This document shows positions 20,106 through 42,866 of a DNA stretch of 64,000 bases, piece after piece (the first letter of the stretch is position 1; each line of letters starts with the position of its first letter). The notes beneath the pieces were generated by a model. The model worked only from the letters and a program-made list of their open reading frames with translations. It had not been told where the DNA came from and did not search any database. Origin of the DNA: Haloglycomyces albus DSM 45210 (GTDB taxonomy: Bacteria > Actinomycetota > Actinomycetes > Mycobacteriales > Micromonosporaceae); the NCBI RefSeq assembly GCF_000527155.1, contig NZ_AZUQ01000001.1, forward strand, positions 1,110,554 to 1,174,553, written 5' to 3'. The translations under genes and the position numbers were made by a program.

Positions 20106-20672
20106 GTGCGAGAACGCAAGCAGCCAAAAAGGAGTCACCTAACGAATGACGGGACGATTGACGTGACAACCAAAACGAACCCCACCGCGATCAACCCGGC
20201 CGCGTGGCTACTCATCGTGTGGTCGGCAGCGTTCGGTGGACTCAGCGTTATCTGGGCCTCCGGCGGAACCTGGCTAGTGGATAAAGTATCCCCCGGACTA
20301 CAGCAAATGGCGGACGACCCCGTCTGGTGGTTCATCCTCCTTCTGTGGGGCACAGCGGTAGTCAAGTTCGGATACGGAGTCTGGGCGCTCGCGATCACGA
20401 GGCCCTGGGGACGAGTCTTCCCGCGTTGGCTTCTTCTGTTCGGCGGTTGGACGGTCGGCCCACTGACGCTGGCCTATGGTTCTGTGCAGTTCGCACTGGC
20501 CTATCCCGTCTATATCGGTAAAACGGAATATCCGGACGCCCCTGACCCCGAGACGCTCTGGTGGTATGTCTTCGTCTGGGACCCGATTTGGATTGTCGGA
20601 GGTGCGTTGACGATCGCCGCGGTTGTCACCTATCAACTTCAGAGCCGCCGGAAAACCGAGCCCGAACAATAA
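20106..20672 (+). CDS. DUF3995-like membrane protein
   Basis: A protein of up to 188 residues with four transmembrane helices (about 33-52, 73-96, 107-132 and 152-172). The pattern FGGLSVIWASGGTWLVDKV and WALAITRPWGRVFPRWLLLFGGW resembles DUF3995 integral membrane proteins. Start is uncertain: GTG at 20106 is used here, but a GTG at 20163 would remove a basic, poorly conserved leader. Function unknown. It ends just before the composite repeat at 20.7 kb. Confidence 0.7.
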   Translation: MRERKQPKRSHLTNDGTIDVTTKTNPTAINPAAWLLIVWSAAFGGLSVIWASGGTWLVDKVSPGLQQMADDPVWWFILLLWGTAVVKFGYGVWALAITRPWGRVFPRWLLLFGGWTVGPLTLAYGSVQFALAYPVYIGKTEYPDAPDPETLWWYVFVWDPIWIVGGALTIAAVVTYQLQSRRKTEPEQ

Positions 20673-20717
20673 GCGGCGCGAAGCGCGTTATGCCCCAGTA
20701 GACCTGTCTGCGCTGCC

Positions 20718-21027
20718 AAAAGAGCGCTGCCATCACTCCATCCCCAGGGACGAGCCAACCGGCGAGCCGCTAACAACGCGCCATAGGCGCGTGTGCAGCG
20801 GCGGTAGAGCTGACTGTGTCTCCTAAAGAGCTCAACCGCCGCACAGGTCCCACGGATATACCAACTGGCGAGCTTCGAACGAAGTGGAGAAGCGGTAGAG
20901 CTGGAGAAGAGCTCAGGTTGTTCCAGGTGCTGCAGATTTGCGCGAGGAGGATTCGTCGCGACCTTCAGGTCGTGAGAATCCCCCACAGCGTAAATATGGA
21001 GTGCCTGGGGCAAGCTGAGCGGTCACC
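20718..21027 (+). repeat. composite repeat, copy A
   Basis: Copy A of a modular repeat. Module X (20718-20812) ends in GCGGTAGAGCTG and holds a GC hairpin (ACGCGCC-ATA-GGCGCGT). A diverged second X-like module follows, again ending in GCGGTAGAGCT. Module Y (20892-21027, 136 bp) differs from copy B (39534-39669) at about five positions by eye. Module Y contains a nested hairpin (GGATTC/GAATCC outside CGACC-TGAA-GGTCG). Its last bases supply the TGA stop of the mscS-like gene on the other strand. Confidence 0.85.
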
Positions 21028-22198
21028 TAAAATCGTTAGAGGCGCTGGCGTCGATCTCTTGCGCTCGGCCGGATCCGCGCGCGGCGGGTACTTCCAGAGC
21101 CGGGGCCTCGTCGCCCATCCAGTAGTCTCCGCTGGTCTCGTAGGTGTTGATGTGCATGCGGGGAATACACGTCGGGTGCTCTTCGACGATCCAACGAATG
21201 ATGTGTTCGCGTGTCTCGCAGCGCAGGTCCCATTGGTTGGAGGGGCTGTCGGCCGACACCAGGATCCGCAGCTGCATGTACGGGCCGACCGAGTGTAGGA
21301 CGATGATGCCGCATTTTCGTCCGTCCCACTTAGGGTTGTCCTCCAGGAATCGGCGCAGTTCGACTCGGGCGTCGTCCACCGGCAGGCGCCAGTCCACGTC
21401 CATCCGGATGGTTCCCAGAACCTGGGGATTGTTGCGTGTCCAGTTGACGTAGCTGTTTTCTTTGAAGTGTTGGCTGGGAAGCACGAGGCGGCGTTCGTCC
21501 CAGATCCGGACGACGACGTATGACAGCGTGATCTCCTCGACCGTTCCCCATTCACCTTGGATGACCACGACGTCTTGGAGCCGCAACGCGTCGCCGAAGG
21601 CCAGTGAGAGGCCCGCGAAGACGTTCGACAGCATCGTCTGGGCCGCCAGCGCGGCGACGACACCGGCAAGACCGGCACCGGCCAGCAGCGACGTTCCCAG
21701 AACTTTCAGGGATTCGACGTTCATCAGGATGATCCCGGCCGCTACCAGCCAGATGGCCGACGACAGCAGGCGGTATACGACGGTGATCTGAGTGCGTCGC
21801 TTGCGTCCGTTGATGTCACCTTGTTGTAGTGAACCCCAACGGCGCTGTACGGGGGCACGCATGACCGAGAGGAGATTGGAGATAAGCCAGGCACCACAGG
21901 CGACGGTGACGAACAGGAGGATGTTCGCCAGTCGGGGATTCCATCCTTCGGCGGTACCGTCGTCGGCCAGGGAGTAGCCCCAGCCTTCCTTGTGTTTCTG
22001 CACCGCCAGGAGGATCTGGACACCGCCGGTGGCCGCCAGGACCTGGGCAGGACGAAGCGCCTTGGCGATCACCAGGGACCGAGTTTCCGAGTGGTGTCGG
22101 TGCAAAAGCCACTTGATGATCAACCGAAGCAGGCTGACCACAACGGCGGAACCGATTGCGACGACGACAATCCACATCCAAGGTTCTATCGTGGGCAT
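21023..22198 (-). CDS. MscS-family mechanosensitive channel
   Basis: A 391-residue membrane protein. Four hydrophobic segments (about 8-28, 88-112, 142-162 and 168-195) precede the MscS pore and beta domain: the pore helix region SLLAGAGLAGVVAALAAQTMLSNVFAGLSLAF and then GDALRLQDVVVIQGEWGTVEEITLSYVVVR are characteristic. The C-terminal alpha/beta region (about 270-350) is followed by a short variable tail. It releases solutes on hypo-osmotic shock. The TGA stop lies inside the composite repeat, so the extreme C-terminus (SNDFR) may have been set by that insertion. Confidence 0.92.
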   Translation of the reverse strand: MPTIEPWMWIVVVAIGSAVVVSLLRLIIKWLLHRHHSETRSLVIAKALRPAQVLAATGGVQILLAVQKHKEGWGYSLADDGTAEGWNPRLANILLFVTVACGAWLISNLLSVMRAPVQRRWGSLQQGDINGRKRRTQITVVYRLLSSAIWLVAAGIILMNVESLKVLGTSLLAGAGLAGVVAALAAQTMLSNVFAGLSLAFGDALRLQDVVVIQGEWGTVEEITLSYVVVRIWDERRLVLPSQHFKENSYVNWTRNNPQVLGTIRMDVDWRLPVDDARVELRRFLEDNPKWDGRKCGIIVLHSVGPYMQLRILVSADSPSNQWDLRCETREHIIRWIVEEHPTCIPRMHINTYETSGDYWMGDEAPALEVPAARGSGRAQEIDASASNDFR

Positions 22199-39152: not shown

Positions 39153-39213
39153 CCTAACGGCACGAACGGAGGGCCGCCTCTCCTACTAGTAGGAAGGGCG
39201 GTTGACCGTTAGG
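39153..39213 (+). promoter_or_regulatory. nested palindrome upstream of bldC
   Basis: The 14-bp perfect palindrome TCCTACTAGTAGGA (39181-39194) is flanked by CCGCC/GGCGG and, outside these, by CCTAACGG (39153-39160) / CCGTTAGG (39206-39213). As RNA it forms a hairpin with internal loops that could end the preceding gene; as DNA it could be an operator for bldC, whose start is about 100 bases away. Confidence 0.65.
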
Positions 39214-39316
39214 AGGATAAAAACAACCATTTGCCCTATGTCGGACAAGCCAGACATCACAGACACTAGAGAGGAAATTTCGATTCAGTCATCGAGCGGG
39301 TACAGAGGAGATCAAC

Positions 39317-39538
39317 GTGACGATGCAAGCATCCGCGTCCAATGACAACCAAACCCTGCTATTGCCCTCCGAAGTCGCAGCTCTCTTCCGAGTCGACCCC
39401 AAAACCGTCACTCGATGGGCCAACTCCGGGCGAATCTCCGCCATCCGCACCCTAGGCGGACATCGGCGATTCCTCGAAAGCGAAATCATGGAAATCCTCG
39501 ATGGTGAGCGCGCCATGAAAATTCCTGTTCAACGGTGA
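39317..39538 (+). CDS. bldC: developmental regulator BldC
   Basis: A 73-residue MerR-like single-domain DNA-binding protein. The core LLLPSEVAALFRVDPKTVTRWANSGRISAIRTLGGHRRF is nearly identical to Streptomyces BldC, which delays entry into sporulation by binding cooperative direct repeats. GTG start at 39317 with AGAGGAG upstream. Neighbours (vdh and a hypothetical gene) match the known locus. The last residues (AMKIPVQR) differ from the usual end, and the TGA stop is supplied by a composite repeat that begins within the final codon. Confidence 0.95.
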   Translation: MTMQASASNDNQTLLLPSEVAALFRVDPKTVTRWANSGRISAIRTLGGHRRFLESEIMEILDGERAMKIPVQR

Positions 39539-39830
39539 CCGCTCAGCTTGCCCCAGGCACTCCACCTTTGCGCTGCGGGGGATTCTCACGACCTGAAGGT
39601 CGCGACGAATCCTCCTCGCGCAAATCTGAAGCACCTGGAACAACCTGAGCTCTTCTCCAGCTCTACCGCCGCTGCACACGCGCTTCGCGCGTTGTTAGCG
39701 GCTCGCCAGTTGGCTCGTCCCTAGGGATGGAGTGATGGCAGCGCTCTTTTAGGAGCACAGGTAGCTCTACCGCCACTGCACTCCGCGCCTGCGGCGCGTC
39801 GTTAGCGGCTCGCCGGTTGGTTTATTCGTA
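39534..39830 (-). repeat. composite repeat, copy B
   Basis: Inverted relative to copy A. Module Y is 39534-39669, module X 39658-39750, and a second X-like module about 39760-39830. The X hairpin here has a different loop (ACGCGC-TTC-GCGCGT, and CGCGCC-TGC-GGCGCG in the second unit) while the stem is kept. The element starts with GGTGA, which provides the bldC stop codon, exactly as in copy A. Confidence 0.85.
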
Positions 39831-39973
39831 GGAATAGTCTGGCGGTTGAGTTTGTCGTGGCGACGCAGGCATTTCTGCCTCAACGGTGCGTTTCGCGGTT
39901 CGAACTGGGGCTCTTGGGTTCGTCGTGGTGTGAGCTCGCAGGCCACTGCATTACATCCCCCGAAATTCCGATC

Positions 39974-40012
39974 AATGTGGGTCGCACCGATCCTTCGGTG
40001 TGGCCCACATTT
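39974..40012. terminator. terminator between repeat and SARP gene
   Basis: AATGTGGG (39974-39981) and CCCACATT (40004-40011) enclose CACCGA/TCGGTG with a four-base loop and small symmetric internal loops. Lies just beyond the stop of the leftward SARP gene, a suitable place for its terminator. Confidence 0.65.
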
Positions 40013-40031
40013 ATAGGTCCGGAATTGGACG

Positions 40032-42866
40032 TCATTTTAGATAATCGAGGGCTTCGACGAAAGCTCCACATTCTTCAGCCAGAATTTCCTTCGCCTCTTG
40101 ACCGGTCAGATCCATTTCAATGGCCTTCAACGCCCCCGCCGCCTCGCCGGCGATCATGGCGTCGCACTGATCCCCGGCCAGATCACGTGCTCTCACCAGC
40201 AAACCTTTCGCCGTGTCCGCCTCCCCGCGCATCAAAGCACGTCTCCCCATGCGGGTGAGCAGTCGCGACAGATCGCTCACCAGGTACAGATCTTCGGCAT
40301 GCTGCAGGGCCATACGGTCCAGACGTTCAGCCTCCGTCAACGCGTCCCGATCGTCGTGAACGCGGCTAAGAATATCGAGTGCCTGCAACGTCCCCCACAT
40401 ATCGCCACAGCCGGAAAAGCCGCGATGCGCCGCATCGGCGAACTTCACCGCGTCATCGAGAACGGAATCGCGCCACGCCGCGAGAGCATATTCGATGTTC
40501 CATGCCGCCGAGATCCACTCGTTCTGAACGGACATCGCATCTTCGAGCGAATGTGACGGTTCGTGGAATTGCCAACGTCCGGTCGCGGTTCGGGTGAGCG
40601 TGCGGTACCAATGCGCCATATCGACCCGGTCCGCCGAGCGATCATCGTCCGCAATGTCGGAGTGAAAAGGAGTGGACCGCTCGACGTCGCCGTGGTGTTC
40701 GTCCAGACGTAGCGACAAGGCTTCGTGCCACAGGCGTACCGCGGTCGCGTGGGCCGCGGATTCAAGATCCGCCTCGATCATATGGCGTGCATATCCATGT
40801 GCTTCGGTAATCCGTCCGGTGAGAACCCAGAACCACATCATCTCGAGAGCTGTACTGGCGGCCGTAGCGACATCGGTTACCAGCAGACGTTCCAACACCA
40901 GCCTGATGTTGGCGGATTCGTCCCGCAGCGACCGCAGCGCCGTTTCCTGGTGGCGACCTCGCAAGTCCGGGGCGACAGTGAGTACGTACGCCACGAAATA
41001 ATCGTTGACGGCCTTCACCGCACGGTGTGATGCCTCGGTGTCGTCCTGTTCACGAAGCACAAAGGCACGGATCGTCTGCAAAAGCCGGTAACGGGGACCA
41101 TGAGTTCCCTGGACGACGTATACCAACGACTGTTCCACCAGCCGGGTCAAGTCCTCATCCAGGTCGATGTCCAGGTCCTCGCACACCTCTTCCAGCGCCG
41201 CCAGTGTCATACCGTCGGCGGTGGAGGCCAAGCGTCCCAAGACCGTTCGTTGCGAGGACGTGGTCAAATCCCAGCTCCACGAGATCACGGCGTCCAAGGT
41301 CCTCTGCCGTGACGGGCGATCGTTCGAACGCGAACGCAGCAACCGGAAGCGGTCGTCCATGCGTCGCACCAGTTCGGACAGTCCGAGCACCCGTACTCGA
41401 GCGGCGGCGAGCTCGAGAGCCAATGGCAATCCATCCAGATGTTCGGCCACTCGAGTCAATTGCGACACGGTTTCCGGAGTGGGGCTGAGTTCGACACCGG
41501 TGGCCCGGATGCGATCGGCCAGAAGACGGAGAGCCGGGTAATGTCCCAGCTCCACCCCGCCCACAAGTTCGTCGGAGTTGGGGAAGTCGAGTGGATCGAC
41601 CACCACGACCTGTTCCGCCTGCAAGCCGAGAACGTCCCGACTCGTGGCGACAATGGCGACTTCACCGGCAATTCCCAGAATTTCGTGTACCGCCGCGGTG
41701 ACGGCGTCGCGGGCTTGCTCGCAGTTGTCCAGCACCAATAGTGAGCGCTTGGTGAGGAGAGCGCTCAGCAACCGATCACGTAGATTCGGCGGATTGTCGA
41801 GTGGCGATCCACCGGAGGCGGCGTCATCACGCACGCCCAGGTGTTCGGCCATCACTTCGTAGACCTGCGAGGCGTCAGTACCTCGAACCGTGGACAGGTC
41901 GATGAATTGAATTCCATCGTGGAAATCCGCCGATACCTCCCGAACCAGCTCCACCGCCGTCCTGGTTTTACCGACGCCGCCGGGACCGGTAAGGGTAACC
42001 AGACGGTGGCGTCGCAAGAACTTCCGGGCCCTCGAAAGCATCGCCTCACGCCCAACGAGGTCGGTGAGCGGCTCGGGAACCGTGGACACGCTCGCGGGTT
42101 GTTGCGATGTCGACGGCGCGGCGGGCAGGTTCTGTCGCAATATGTCCTGTTGCGCCTGTACCAGGTCGGGCCCCGGGTCCAGCCCAAGTTCGTCGCGTAG
42201 TCGTTCGCCGACCTCACTGAACACGTCGAGAGCTTCGGATTGACGACCCGCCTGATAGAGACTACGCATCAACAAGGCGTGCAGTCCCTCTCGCAGGGGA
42301 TGCCGTTGTGCCAGCGCGGTCAGTTCGGCGACGACCGAGCTGCCTTGTCCGTTCTCCACCCGCAGTGAGGCGCGTCTTTCGCGGGCGGAGAGATGCTTTT
42401 CCTCCAGGTCCGCGGCCGCGGCGAGCGCGAATCGTTCGTGGCGGAACTCTCCGAAGGGATCGCCCCGCCACAGACTGAGTGCGGTGGACAGGAACTCCTG
42501 TTGGGTTCGGCTGTCAGGGGCGGTATCGACGGTGCGCAGGCTGTGTTCGAAGAGGTGTGTGTCGATTTTTTTCGGATCGACGTTCAGGCGGTATCCGTAG
42601 TCCTGCCAGGTAATGAGATCGGCGGCGTTCTCCCCCGCATTGCGAAAGGCCTGGCGCAGTTGCGAGACCTTTGACCGCAGGGCCGATTCCACTTTGGCGG
42701 GTACCGCGTCTCCCCAGAGTGCGTCGGCGAGTCGGTCGGCCGACACCACTGCGTTGGGGTGGATGAGCAATACGGTGAGCAGGCAGCGAACCTTGGTTCC
42801 GGGGATGTCGACGGGTCGGTCGTGTTGATCGGTTACTTCAAGGGAGCCAAGCACACCAAATCGCAT
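40032..42866 (-). CDS. AfsR/SARP-type regulator with NB-ARC domain
   Basis: A 944-residue pathway regulator from the ATG at 42866 (MRFGVLGSLEV). Domains: OmpR-like winged helix (1-95), bacterial transcriptional activation domain (about 100-245, DTHLFEHSLRT ... GLDPGPDL), NB-ARC/STAND ATPase (Walker A GPGGVGKT at 294-301, LLVLDNCEQ, GLPLALELAAARV), and a TPR-like C-terminal half (about 640-944). Proteins of this type switch on secondary-metabolite or stress genes in response to phosphorylation or ligands. It is divergent from an FMN reductase and an MFS exporter, which are its likely targets. No biosynthetic cluster is visible. Confidence 0.92.
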   Translation of the reverse strand: MRFGVLGSLEVTDQHDRPVDIPGTKVRCLLTVLLIHPNAVVSADRLADALWGDAVPAKVESALRSKVSQLRQAFRNAGENAADLITWQDYGYRLNVDPKKIDTHLFEHSLRTVDTAPDSRTQQEFLSTALSLWRGDPFGEFRHERFALAAAADLEEKHLSARERRASLRVENGQGSSVVAELTALAQRHPLREGLHALLMRSLYQAGRQSEALDVFSEVGERLRDELGLDPGPDLVQAQQDILRQNLPAAPSTSQQPASVSTVPEPLTDLVGREAMLSRARKFLRRHRLVTLTGPGGVGKTRTAVELVREVSADFHDGIQFIDLSTVRGTDASQVYEVMAEHLGVRDDAASGGSPLDNPPNLRDRLLSALLTKRSLLVLDNCEQARDAVTAAVHEILGIAGEVAIVATSRDVLGLQAEQVVVVDPLDFPNSDELVGGVELGHYPALRLLADRIRATGVELSPTPETVSQLTRVAEHLDGLPLALELAAARVRVLGLSELVRRMDDRFRLLRSRSNDRPSRQRTLDAVISWSWDLTTSSQRTVLGRLASTADGMTLAALEEVCEDLDIDLDEDLTRLVEQSLVYVVQGTHGPRYRLLQTIRAFVLREQDDTEASHRAVKAVNDYFVAYVLTVAPDLRGRHQETALRSLRDESANIRLVLERLLVTDVATAASTALEMMWFWVLTGRITEAHGYARHMIEADLESAAHATAVRLWHEALSLRLDEHHGDVERSTPFHSDIADDDRSADRVDMAHWYRTLTRTATGRWQFHEPSHSLEDAMSVQNEWISAAWNIEYALAAWRDSVLDDAVKFADAAHRGFSGCGDMWGTLQALDILSRVHDDRDALTEAERLDRMALQHAEDLYLVSDLSRLLTRMGRRALMRGEADTAKGLLVRARDLAGDQCDAMIAGEAAGALKAIEMDLTGQEAKEILAEECGAFVEALDYLK

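Follow-up and report, generated by a model that had tools for sequence, protein, structure and literature searches.

What kind of element is represented by two distant, inverted look-alike segments in the chromosome of Haloglycomyces albus DSM 45210? We analyzed a window of 64,000 nt, by which we mean the whole stretch of DNA under study (GCF_000527155.1, NZ_AZUQ01000001.1:1,110,554-1,174,553, forward strand), from a genome that consists of a single contig of 3.54 Mb. The first-pass annotation had described a modular unit, X-X-Y, at 20718-21027 and, inverted, at 39534-39830, with Y modules differing at about five positions by eye, a common junction and no transposase frame. Both loci are present at these positions. 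The Y modules are 96% identical over 136 nt, that is, they differ at about five positions, and the junction GCGGTAGAGCT precedes Y and separates the X modules. The open reading frames listed for both copies overlap each other on both strands and appear chance-like by eye, in agreement with the claim that no transposase frame is present.

The right boundary of the first copy is sharp, with the Y1 terminal palindrome of 136 nt (20892..21027, plus strand) closing on the fixed 3' end GAGCGGTCACC. A decayed outer X module (CCAGTAGACCTG...CGGCGAGC; 20695..20767, +, unit 1131445_1) already begins at about 20695, which makes the left coordinate, 20718, arbitrary. Between these lie an H1 hairpin segment of type b (CGGCGAGCCGCTAACAACGCGCCATAGGCGCGTGTGCAGCG; 20760..20800, +), an inner X module (GCGGTAGAGCTGACTGTG...CCAACTGGCGAGC; 20801..20873, +, unit 1131445_0) and an H1 hairpin segment of type a (TGGCGAGCTTCGAACGAAGT...; 20866..20891, +). 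The element end contains GGTGACC, read in the gene direction, and its TGA (21023..21025, minus strand) is the stop codon of a mechanosensitive-channel gene at 21023-22198 (-). On the minus strand, the second copy comprises a Y1 terminal palindrome (39534..39669), an H1 segment of type b (39670..39708), an inner X module (39701..39773, unit 1150087_0) and an outer H1 segment (39774..39815). A BldC-family gene of 71 amino acids (39323..39538, +) has as its stop codon the TGA inside the end of this copy.

The 136-bp Y module is present in approximately 55 copies genome-wide, two of which are weak (315390 and 1492584). This number was obtained from 66 matches of R2, a covariance model of the third Y type built from nine sequences, after removal of 12 that match an already counted palindrome on its opposite strand, plus one place (183273) that only BLAST detected. 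With separate pieces and opposite-strand palindrome matches included, the genome showed 69 matches to the 310-nt query, 44 to Y alone and 48 to X alone. The copy number is far beyond chance. The first-pass annotation would have been refuted by a genome with no further copies, in which the pair is explained by one recent segmental duplication. The 96% likeness in Y would suit such an event, but about 53 further copies were found elsewhere, the family of about 55 is spread across the genome beside different genes, and given the 69 matches to the full query we rejected this explanation, the probability of which we regard as negligible.

Nor is X-X-Y a fixed unit. Across the family, 0-3 recognisable internal X modules stand ahead of a fixed Y, and a fixed left module was not found. 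There are three Y types with the same flanks, Y1 (TTGTTCC...), Y2 (GGGGGCTGCTGAGG...) and Y3 (CACAGTGCGTTGAATAGTGG...), and at least three types of the H1 segment that precedes Y, which combine with all three Y types. Among 53 copies, we counted H1a-Y1 (14), H1b-Y1 (10), H1a-Y2 (8), H1c-Y1 (6), H1a-Y3 (6), H1b-Y3 (4), H1b-Y2 (2) and another H1 type with Y1 (3). Over 861 pairs of copies, likeness in Y correlated only weakly with likeness in the adjacent X module (Spearman 0.18), and the modules are thus shuffled among copies. The X modules are conserved as short words, namely GGTAGAGCT, AGAGCTC, GGACGAGCC and TGGCGAGC. The median best identity to another locus was 0.956 for Y (n=53), 0.873 for X0 (42), 0.812 for X1 (23) and 0.553 for X2 (7), some of the outer X2 units being chance anchors. 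Thus, conservation drops with distance from Y (X0 versus outer modules, p=0.0007). The two weak copies were left out of this decay analysis and of the target-duplication, terminal-inverted-repeat, stop-position and stub counts. A CRISPR array was rejected as a description of the family, since it is the modules that are conserved and the spacing between Y and the nearest GCGGTAGAGC word ranges from about 84 to 108.

Y is a long imperfect palindrome that forms one long stem of 43 pairs. The structure was analyzed in alignments of 29 (A2) and 9 (A3) of the 55 copies, picked to avoid near-identical rows and without copies that have rearranged or deleted arms, L034, L038, L043 and L085 among them. 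In the 29 Y1/Y2 sequences, 98.8% of the cells pair, and both sides are changed in 113 cells as compared to 38.6 +/- 4.1 after shuffling, a value reached in none of 500 shuffles. The covariation score was 0.309, as compared to 0.150 in the shuffled alignments (0/500 reached it) and 0.03-0.09 when the partners were slid by 1-3 columns. The number of pairs changed on both sides (14, reached by 62/500 shuffles) and of further pair types (35, reached by 93/500) was not clearly above that in the shuffles. The pairing of Y is kept by compensatory changes.

In a palindrome that acts only as double-stranded DNA, G.T and A.C mismatches should be equally common on one strand. The ratio of G.T to A.C columns was 18:3 for Y1/Y2 (p=0.0015) and 17:4 for Y3 (p=0.007), in a test that is tilted toward G.T as the structure was chosen on the X-to-Y strand, and in which symmetric internal mismatches were included to reduce this tilt. 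The calculated fold energy of Y was -79.6 kcal/mol for the X-to-Y strand and -57.9 kcal/mol for the other strand. Because the G.T columns outnumber the A.C columns, the X-to-Y strand is probably the folding one, either as RNA or as single-stranded DNA. No common RNA fold of the X modules was obtained: with RNAalifold, the 30 units of type a yielded no structure and the 22 of type b only a trivial one. A pseudoknot is apparent by eye in some X modules. Membership in a known structured RNA family was rejected, since Rfam models showed two tRNAs only in the window and the best match within the element scored 18.7 bits, as compared to a cut-off of 50. Visual inspection also revealed three copies, L085:1743-1879 (+), L034:1663-1798 (-) and L032:1639-1773 (-), in which all or part of the Y arms now form exact or nearly exact reverse complements, or in which the inner part has been inverted; template switching between the arms of a hairpin would be expected to leave such a pattern.

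The position of the copies relative to genes follows a rule on one side. Neighbours were called with a home-made, codon-usage-based gene caller without RNA genes, and the neighbours and their starts are therefore approximate. In 40/55 copies, the gene next to the 3' end of Y converges on it, so that the two 3' ends face each other, and the remaining 15 have no converging protein gene. On the left side no such rule was seen, with 27 neighbours opposed and 28 in the same direction. Of the two early guesses, a non-autonomous element and a family of structured 3-prime regions, each describes part of what we observed: a dispersed, coding-free and structured repeat, located mostly at gene 3' ends.

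To place the border more exactly, we used 52 copies, leaving aside the two weak ones and 1944406, the left neighbour of which lies outside the fetched stretch. A converging gene was present in 39 of these, and in 30 of the 39 its stop codon falls at -12 to +8 nt of the border. Random placement in the available room gave an expectation of 1.9, and none of 200,000 simulations exceeded 10. The stop distances in the other nine cases were -115, -63, 28, 34, 106, 119, 331, 452 and 524; in the 331-nt case (copy 1777336), the element stands 12 nt behind a tRNA-Met gene pointing at Y (L124:1452-1524; Y at L124:1537-1672). Hairpins with T-runs were seen by eye ahead of copies 2838313 and 1344712. Random placement with tolerance does not predict so sharp a peak at the stop codon, and selection at gene ends can contribute to it.

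In 13 cases, the gene ends on the element's own TGA, and the neighbours of the two window copies are among these. Eight of the 13 proteins were scanned with NCBIfam profiles: RecR (196/196), ManA (359/359), RlmB (240/240), RecN (562/563), ICDH (401/403), a nucleotide-sugar dehydrogenase (412/413) and BldC (49/49) are covered to or nearly to the profile end, and the eighth corresponds to half of a two-domain TrkA profile. Thus, with seven of the eight reaching or nearly reaching the end, the genes are not visibly truncated. With the origin taken from the dnaA gene (identified by its scanned domains) and the terminus assumed to lie opposite, the X-to-Y strand runs against the replication fork in 37/55 copies. 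Since the genes run with the fork at 119:93, the fork orientation of the copies is not independent of gene direction.

Several copies bear what may be traces of other arrivals. In 9/53 copies, a tail resembling YACCYACCAACCAAA is followed, within 110 nt downstream, by the 3' stub of another copy that points the same way, as compared to no opposite-orientation stub in 53. The stubs at 806235, 1996585 and 1098038 (a Y2-type stub behind Y1) differ from the end of the adjacent copy, which shows that not all stubs arose by slippage, although the exact 22-nt repeats behind 1488193 may have done so. Over 53 copies, there was no signal for a target duplication (permutation p=0.97) or for a terminal inverted repeat. 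An inverted Y end with at most 2 mismatches was present within 900 nt upstream in 13/53 copies; four of these are the ends of head-to-head partners and nine look like chance. Assignment of the family to the MITEs was rejected on the lack of terminal-repeat and duplication signals, and no parent insertion sequence was found by Y1_Tnp, RVT_1 or neighbour-protein similarity.

Six pairs of copies lie within 3 kb of each other, in each case in a head-to-head arrangement with outward-pointing Y ends (183273/186050, 1488193/1488769, 2083724/2084369, 2093046/2095338, 2178949/2180032 and 3407962/3410076). Between and beside them, only ordinary host genes (by eye) or X remains were found, and a composite transposon was therefore rejected. 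Two secreted proteins with 47% identity (L002:325-948, with LPMO_10 and CBM_5_12 domains, and L002:1899-2723) flank the Y copy at 3410076, and a gene may therefore have been duplicated locally beside this element.

One head-to-head pair is located inside a ribosomal protein operon, between rplR and rpsE (L131:2026-3004), where the L18-S5 gap measures 979-997 nt. The L18 protein beside the pair reaches the end of the Pfam model (116/116). S5 was found in the locus in 27/28 relatives, with the nearest start 12-190 nt behind the L18 stop in 26 of them and more than 1 kb away in one (L139); in relative L138, no S5 was found within the locus. Because L138 and L139 are also widely spaced, the L18-S5 locus is not a clean empty site, and insertions may have occurred at this junction more than once within the group. 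In one of these two wide spacings, a frame resembling a glycosidase was noticed by eye. A strong fold of the 80 nt that follow the L18 stop was obtained for 4/28 relatives, those with the widest spacing (L138, L139, L140 and L144; z -2.6 to -7.1), but not for the other 24 (z -1.5 to +2.4). Y may or may not have taken the place of an older hairpin behind L18 in this group.

We searched for the repeat and for a possible engine in other sequences. By blastn, Y was found in none of 80 relatives, which include no second genome of the genus and for each of which up to 10 candidates were scored, so that this is weak evidence of absence. The same applies to model R1, which matched only the own genome among 354 family genomes (nine candidates scored in each). 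Model R2 yielded nothing at E up to 1 in 8 relatives (150 candidates scored in each), and phage and plasmid records gave no match. The matches to an exact 20-base word, 6 of them in contigs of GTDB and 3 in viral ones, look like chance, and the R2 score did not exceed 16.5 bits at any of the six GTDB loci. The literature searched, with subscription journals outside its scope, contained no description of this repeat.

The Y1 transposase domain of the RAYT type (Y1_Tnp, PF01797) had no match in the genome, while the positive control matched in 6/14 genomes, and the reverse transcriptase domain (RVT_1, PF00078) likewise had none, with the positive control matching in 3/14 genomes. On these results we rejected membership among the REP/RAYT systems and among the retroelements (group II introns, retrons and SINE-like elements), respectively. 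Comparison of 148 neighbouring proteins revealed 12 alike pairs, for example thioredoxins and secreted hydrolases, none of which is a transposase by eye, some of the proteins having been profile-scanned. Since neither of the two domains is present in the genome, the engine has been lost, belongs to another family (Y2, DDE and tyrosine recombinases lay outside the genome search) or was never of the Y1 or reverse transcriptase kind.

The family was compared with known repeats. REP sequences mobilized by RAYTs are strand-specific imperfect hairpins with a GTAG-like foot and are mostly extragenic. Y is much longer and preceded by arrays of X, no RAYT-type Y1_Tnp is encoded in the genome, and the conserved GGTAG before Y, which may be compared with the REP foot, is separated from the stem. 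The mycobacterial MIRUs are actinobacterial interspersed repeats whose ends overlap stop codons, with small frames in register with the neighbour genes; the stop-codon overlap is alike, whereas the present repeats place a long hairpin antisense to the gene. The attC sites of integrons, which also lie just behind stop codons, are imperfect, variable palindromes whose ends are conserved, and they carry the boxes R'' (RYYYAAC) and R' (GTTRRRY). By eye, no such boxes are present at the ends in alignment A1, and the repeats are dispersed beside chromosomal genes rather than arranged in a cassette array.

The first-pass annotation knew no named repeat with this layout, yet a similar modular build is known from the BOX elements of Streptococcus pneumoniae (PMC3049150). 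These have a variable number of middle modules and more than 100 copies, are structured if transcribed, almost lacking outside a limited set of species, enriched between convergent genes and read as parasitic (PMC3049150). Judged by description rather than by sequence, BOX is the closest known kind, both families being modular, variable in the middle, lineage-restricted and structured. However, BOX elements are reported to have terminal inverted repeats and to cause target duplications, and have outer modules on both sides (boxA and boxC), in contrast to the one bounded end, the lack of a terminal-repeat or target-duplication signal and the tight tie to the stop codon observed here. The same paper also describes SPRITEs, hairpin repeats near gene 3' ends with an 18-bp terminator-like stem and a U-rich tract (PMC3049150). 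Y shares with them the hairpin and its location, but has a stem of 43 pairs and, in the two window copies, no U-tract behind it, for which reason it was also rejected as an intrinsic terminator.

With a probability of about 0.6, we propose that the approximately 55 interspersed, modular and non-coding repeats have spread as non-autonomous, one-ended, BOX-like mobile elements anchored at gene ends. What can be read directly from the sequence is their dispersal beside many genes, the fixed 3' end, the variable and decaying 5' side and the covarying Y hairpin with strand-biased wobbles, together with a strong preference of the Y 3' end for lying against the stop of an opposing gene and, at a number of these sites, stubs left by further copies. 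From this pattern we infer the mobility of the family. Each move would proceed via a single-stranded X-to-Y intermediate folded at Y, with the machinery supplied in trans, and the 3' tail (YACCYACCAACCAAA) would join at or just behind a gene end. Later arrivals would insert into the terminal part of a Y already in place, so that its 3' stub remains downstream and the old X modules upstream. As the first hairpin that follows the stop, the Y of a resident copy may in addition act as a terminator or 3' end for the opposing gene, and gene conversion among old copies could account for part of the spread.

A rival view is that the copies are mainly host elements, kept as terminators or mRNA 3' structures of the genes they abut and spread and homogenised by gene conversion instead of transposition. 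The 30/39 stop codons at -12 to +8 nt, which make Y the first hairpin behind the stop, are consistent with such a role, as are the strong covariation in Y and the strong fold behind the L18 stop in four of the 28 relatives. Intrinsic terminators of actinobacteria may be free of U-tracts. The scans for U-tract terminators, however, gave none in 20500-21400 and two sites in 39200-40200 that fall outside the element, and the strand that apparently folds, X-to-Y, is antisense to the gene. Furthermore, 15/55 copies face no converging protein gene, and the 13 element-supplied stop codons look like insertion into gene ends. We consider a mainly host-borne role rather unlikely.

Two other readings also assume movement and differ in the intermediate. 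An RNA running from X to Y might have been copied by target-primed reverse transcription in the manner of a SINE, its CACC/AACC/AAA tail annealing to GGT-rich gene ends. The fixed 3' end with an A- and C-rich tail, the variable 5' side, the RNA-like wobble asymmetry and the nine same-orientation stubs against none in the opposite orientation would suit this route, which is nevertheless doubtful with no RVT_1 domain in the genome, X modules without a common RNA fold and no promoter-like site around the two window copies, where one promoter type was scanned. Movement as single-stranded DNA by a hairpin-recognising HUH enzyme (REP/RAYT, IS200/IS605 or IS91-like) would explain the strand-biased hairpin, the GGTAG conserved before Y, the one-ended copies and the lack of target duplications; it is improbable in view of the missing Y1 transposase, a result that concerns the Y1 family only and not the IS91-type Y2 enzymes, and of a Y several times the length of a REP.

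Returning to the non-autonomous, one-ended elements that we favour, a more far-reaching and speculative possibility is that they represent a new kind of bacterial mobile element directed to the ends of transcription units. Such an element would move as a one-ended single strand folded into the Y palindrome and be joined in a fixed antisense orientation at stop codons or behind terminators and tRNA ends, where its own in-frame TGA would often keep the host proteins intact and reinsertion at its own end would build an X array that records the arrivals.

Small structured repeats at gene ends are usually ascribed to tolerance of insertions, whereas here the border coincides with the stop codon with a precision well above that predicted for random placement in the free intergenic space (30/39 versus 1.9), and 13 genes, including the conserved recR, recN, manA and icd, end on a stop codon supplied by the repeat. 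We regard the family as a modular interspersed repeat with an unusual anchoring rule. If the insertion is targeted, this would be a benign targeting rule that is not tied to a single locus; if selection is responsible, many genes of a single lineage would have acquired these repeats as their 3' ends.
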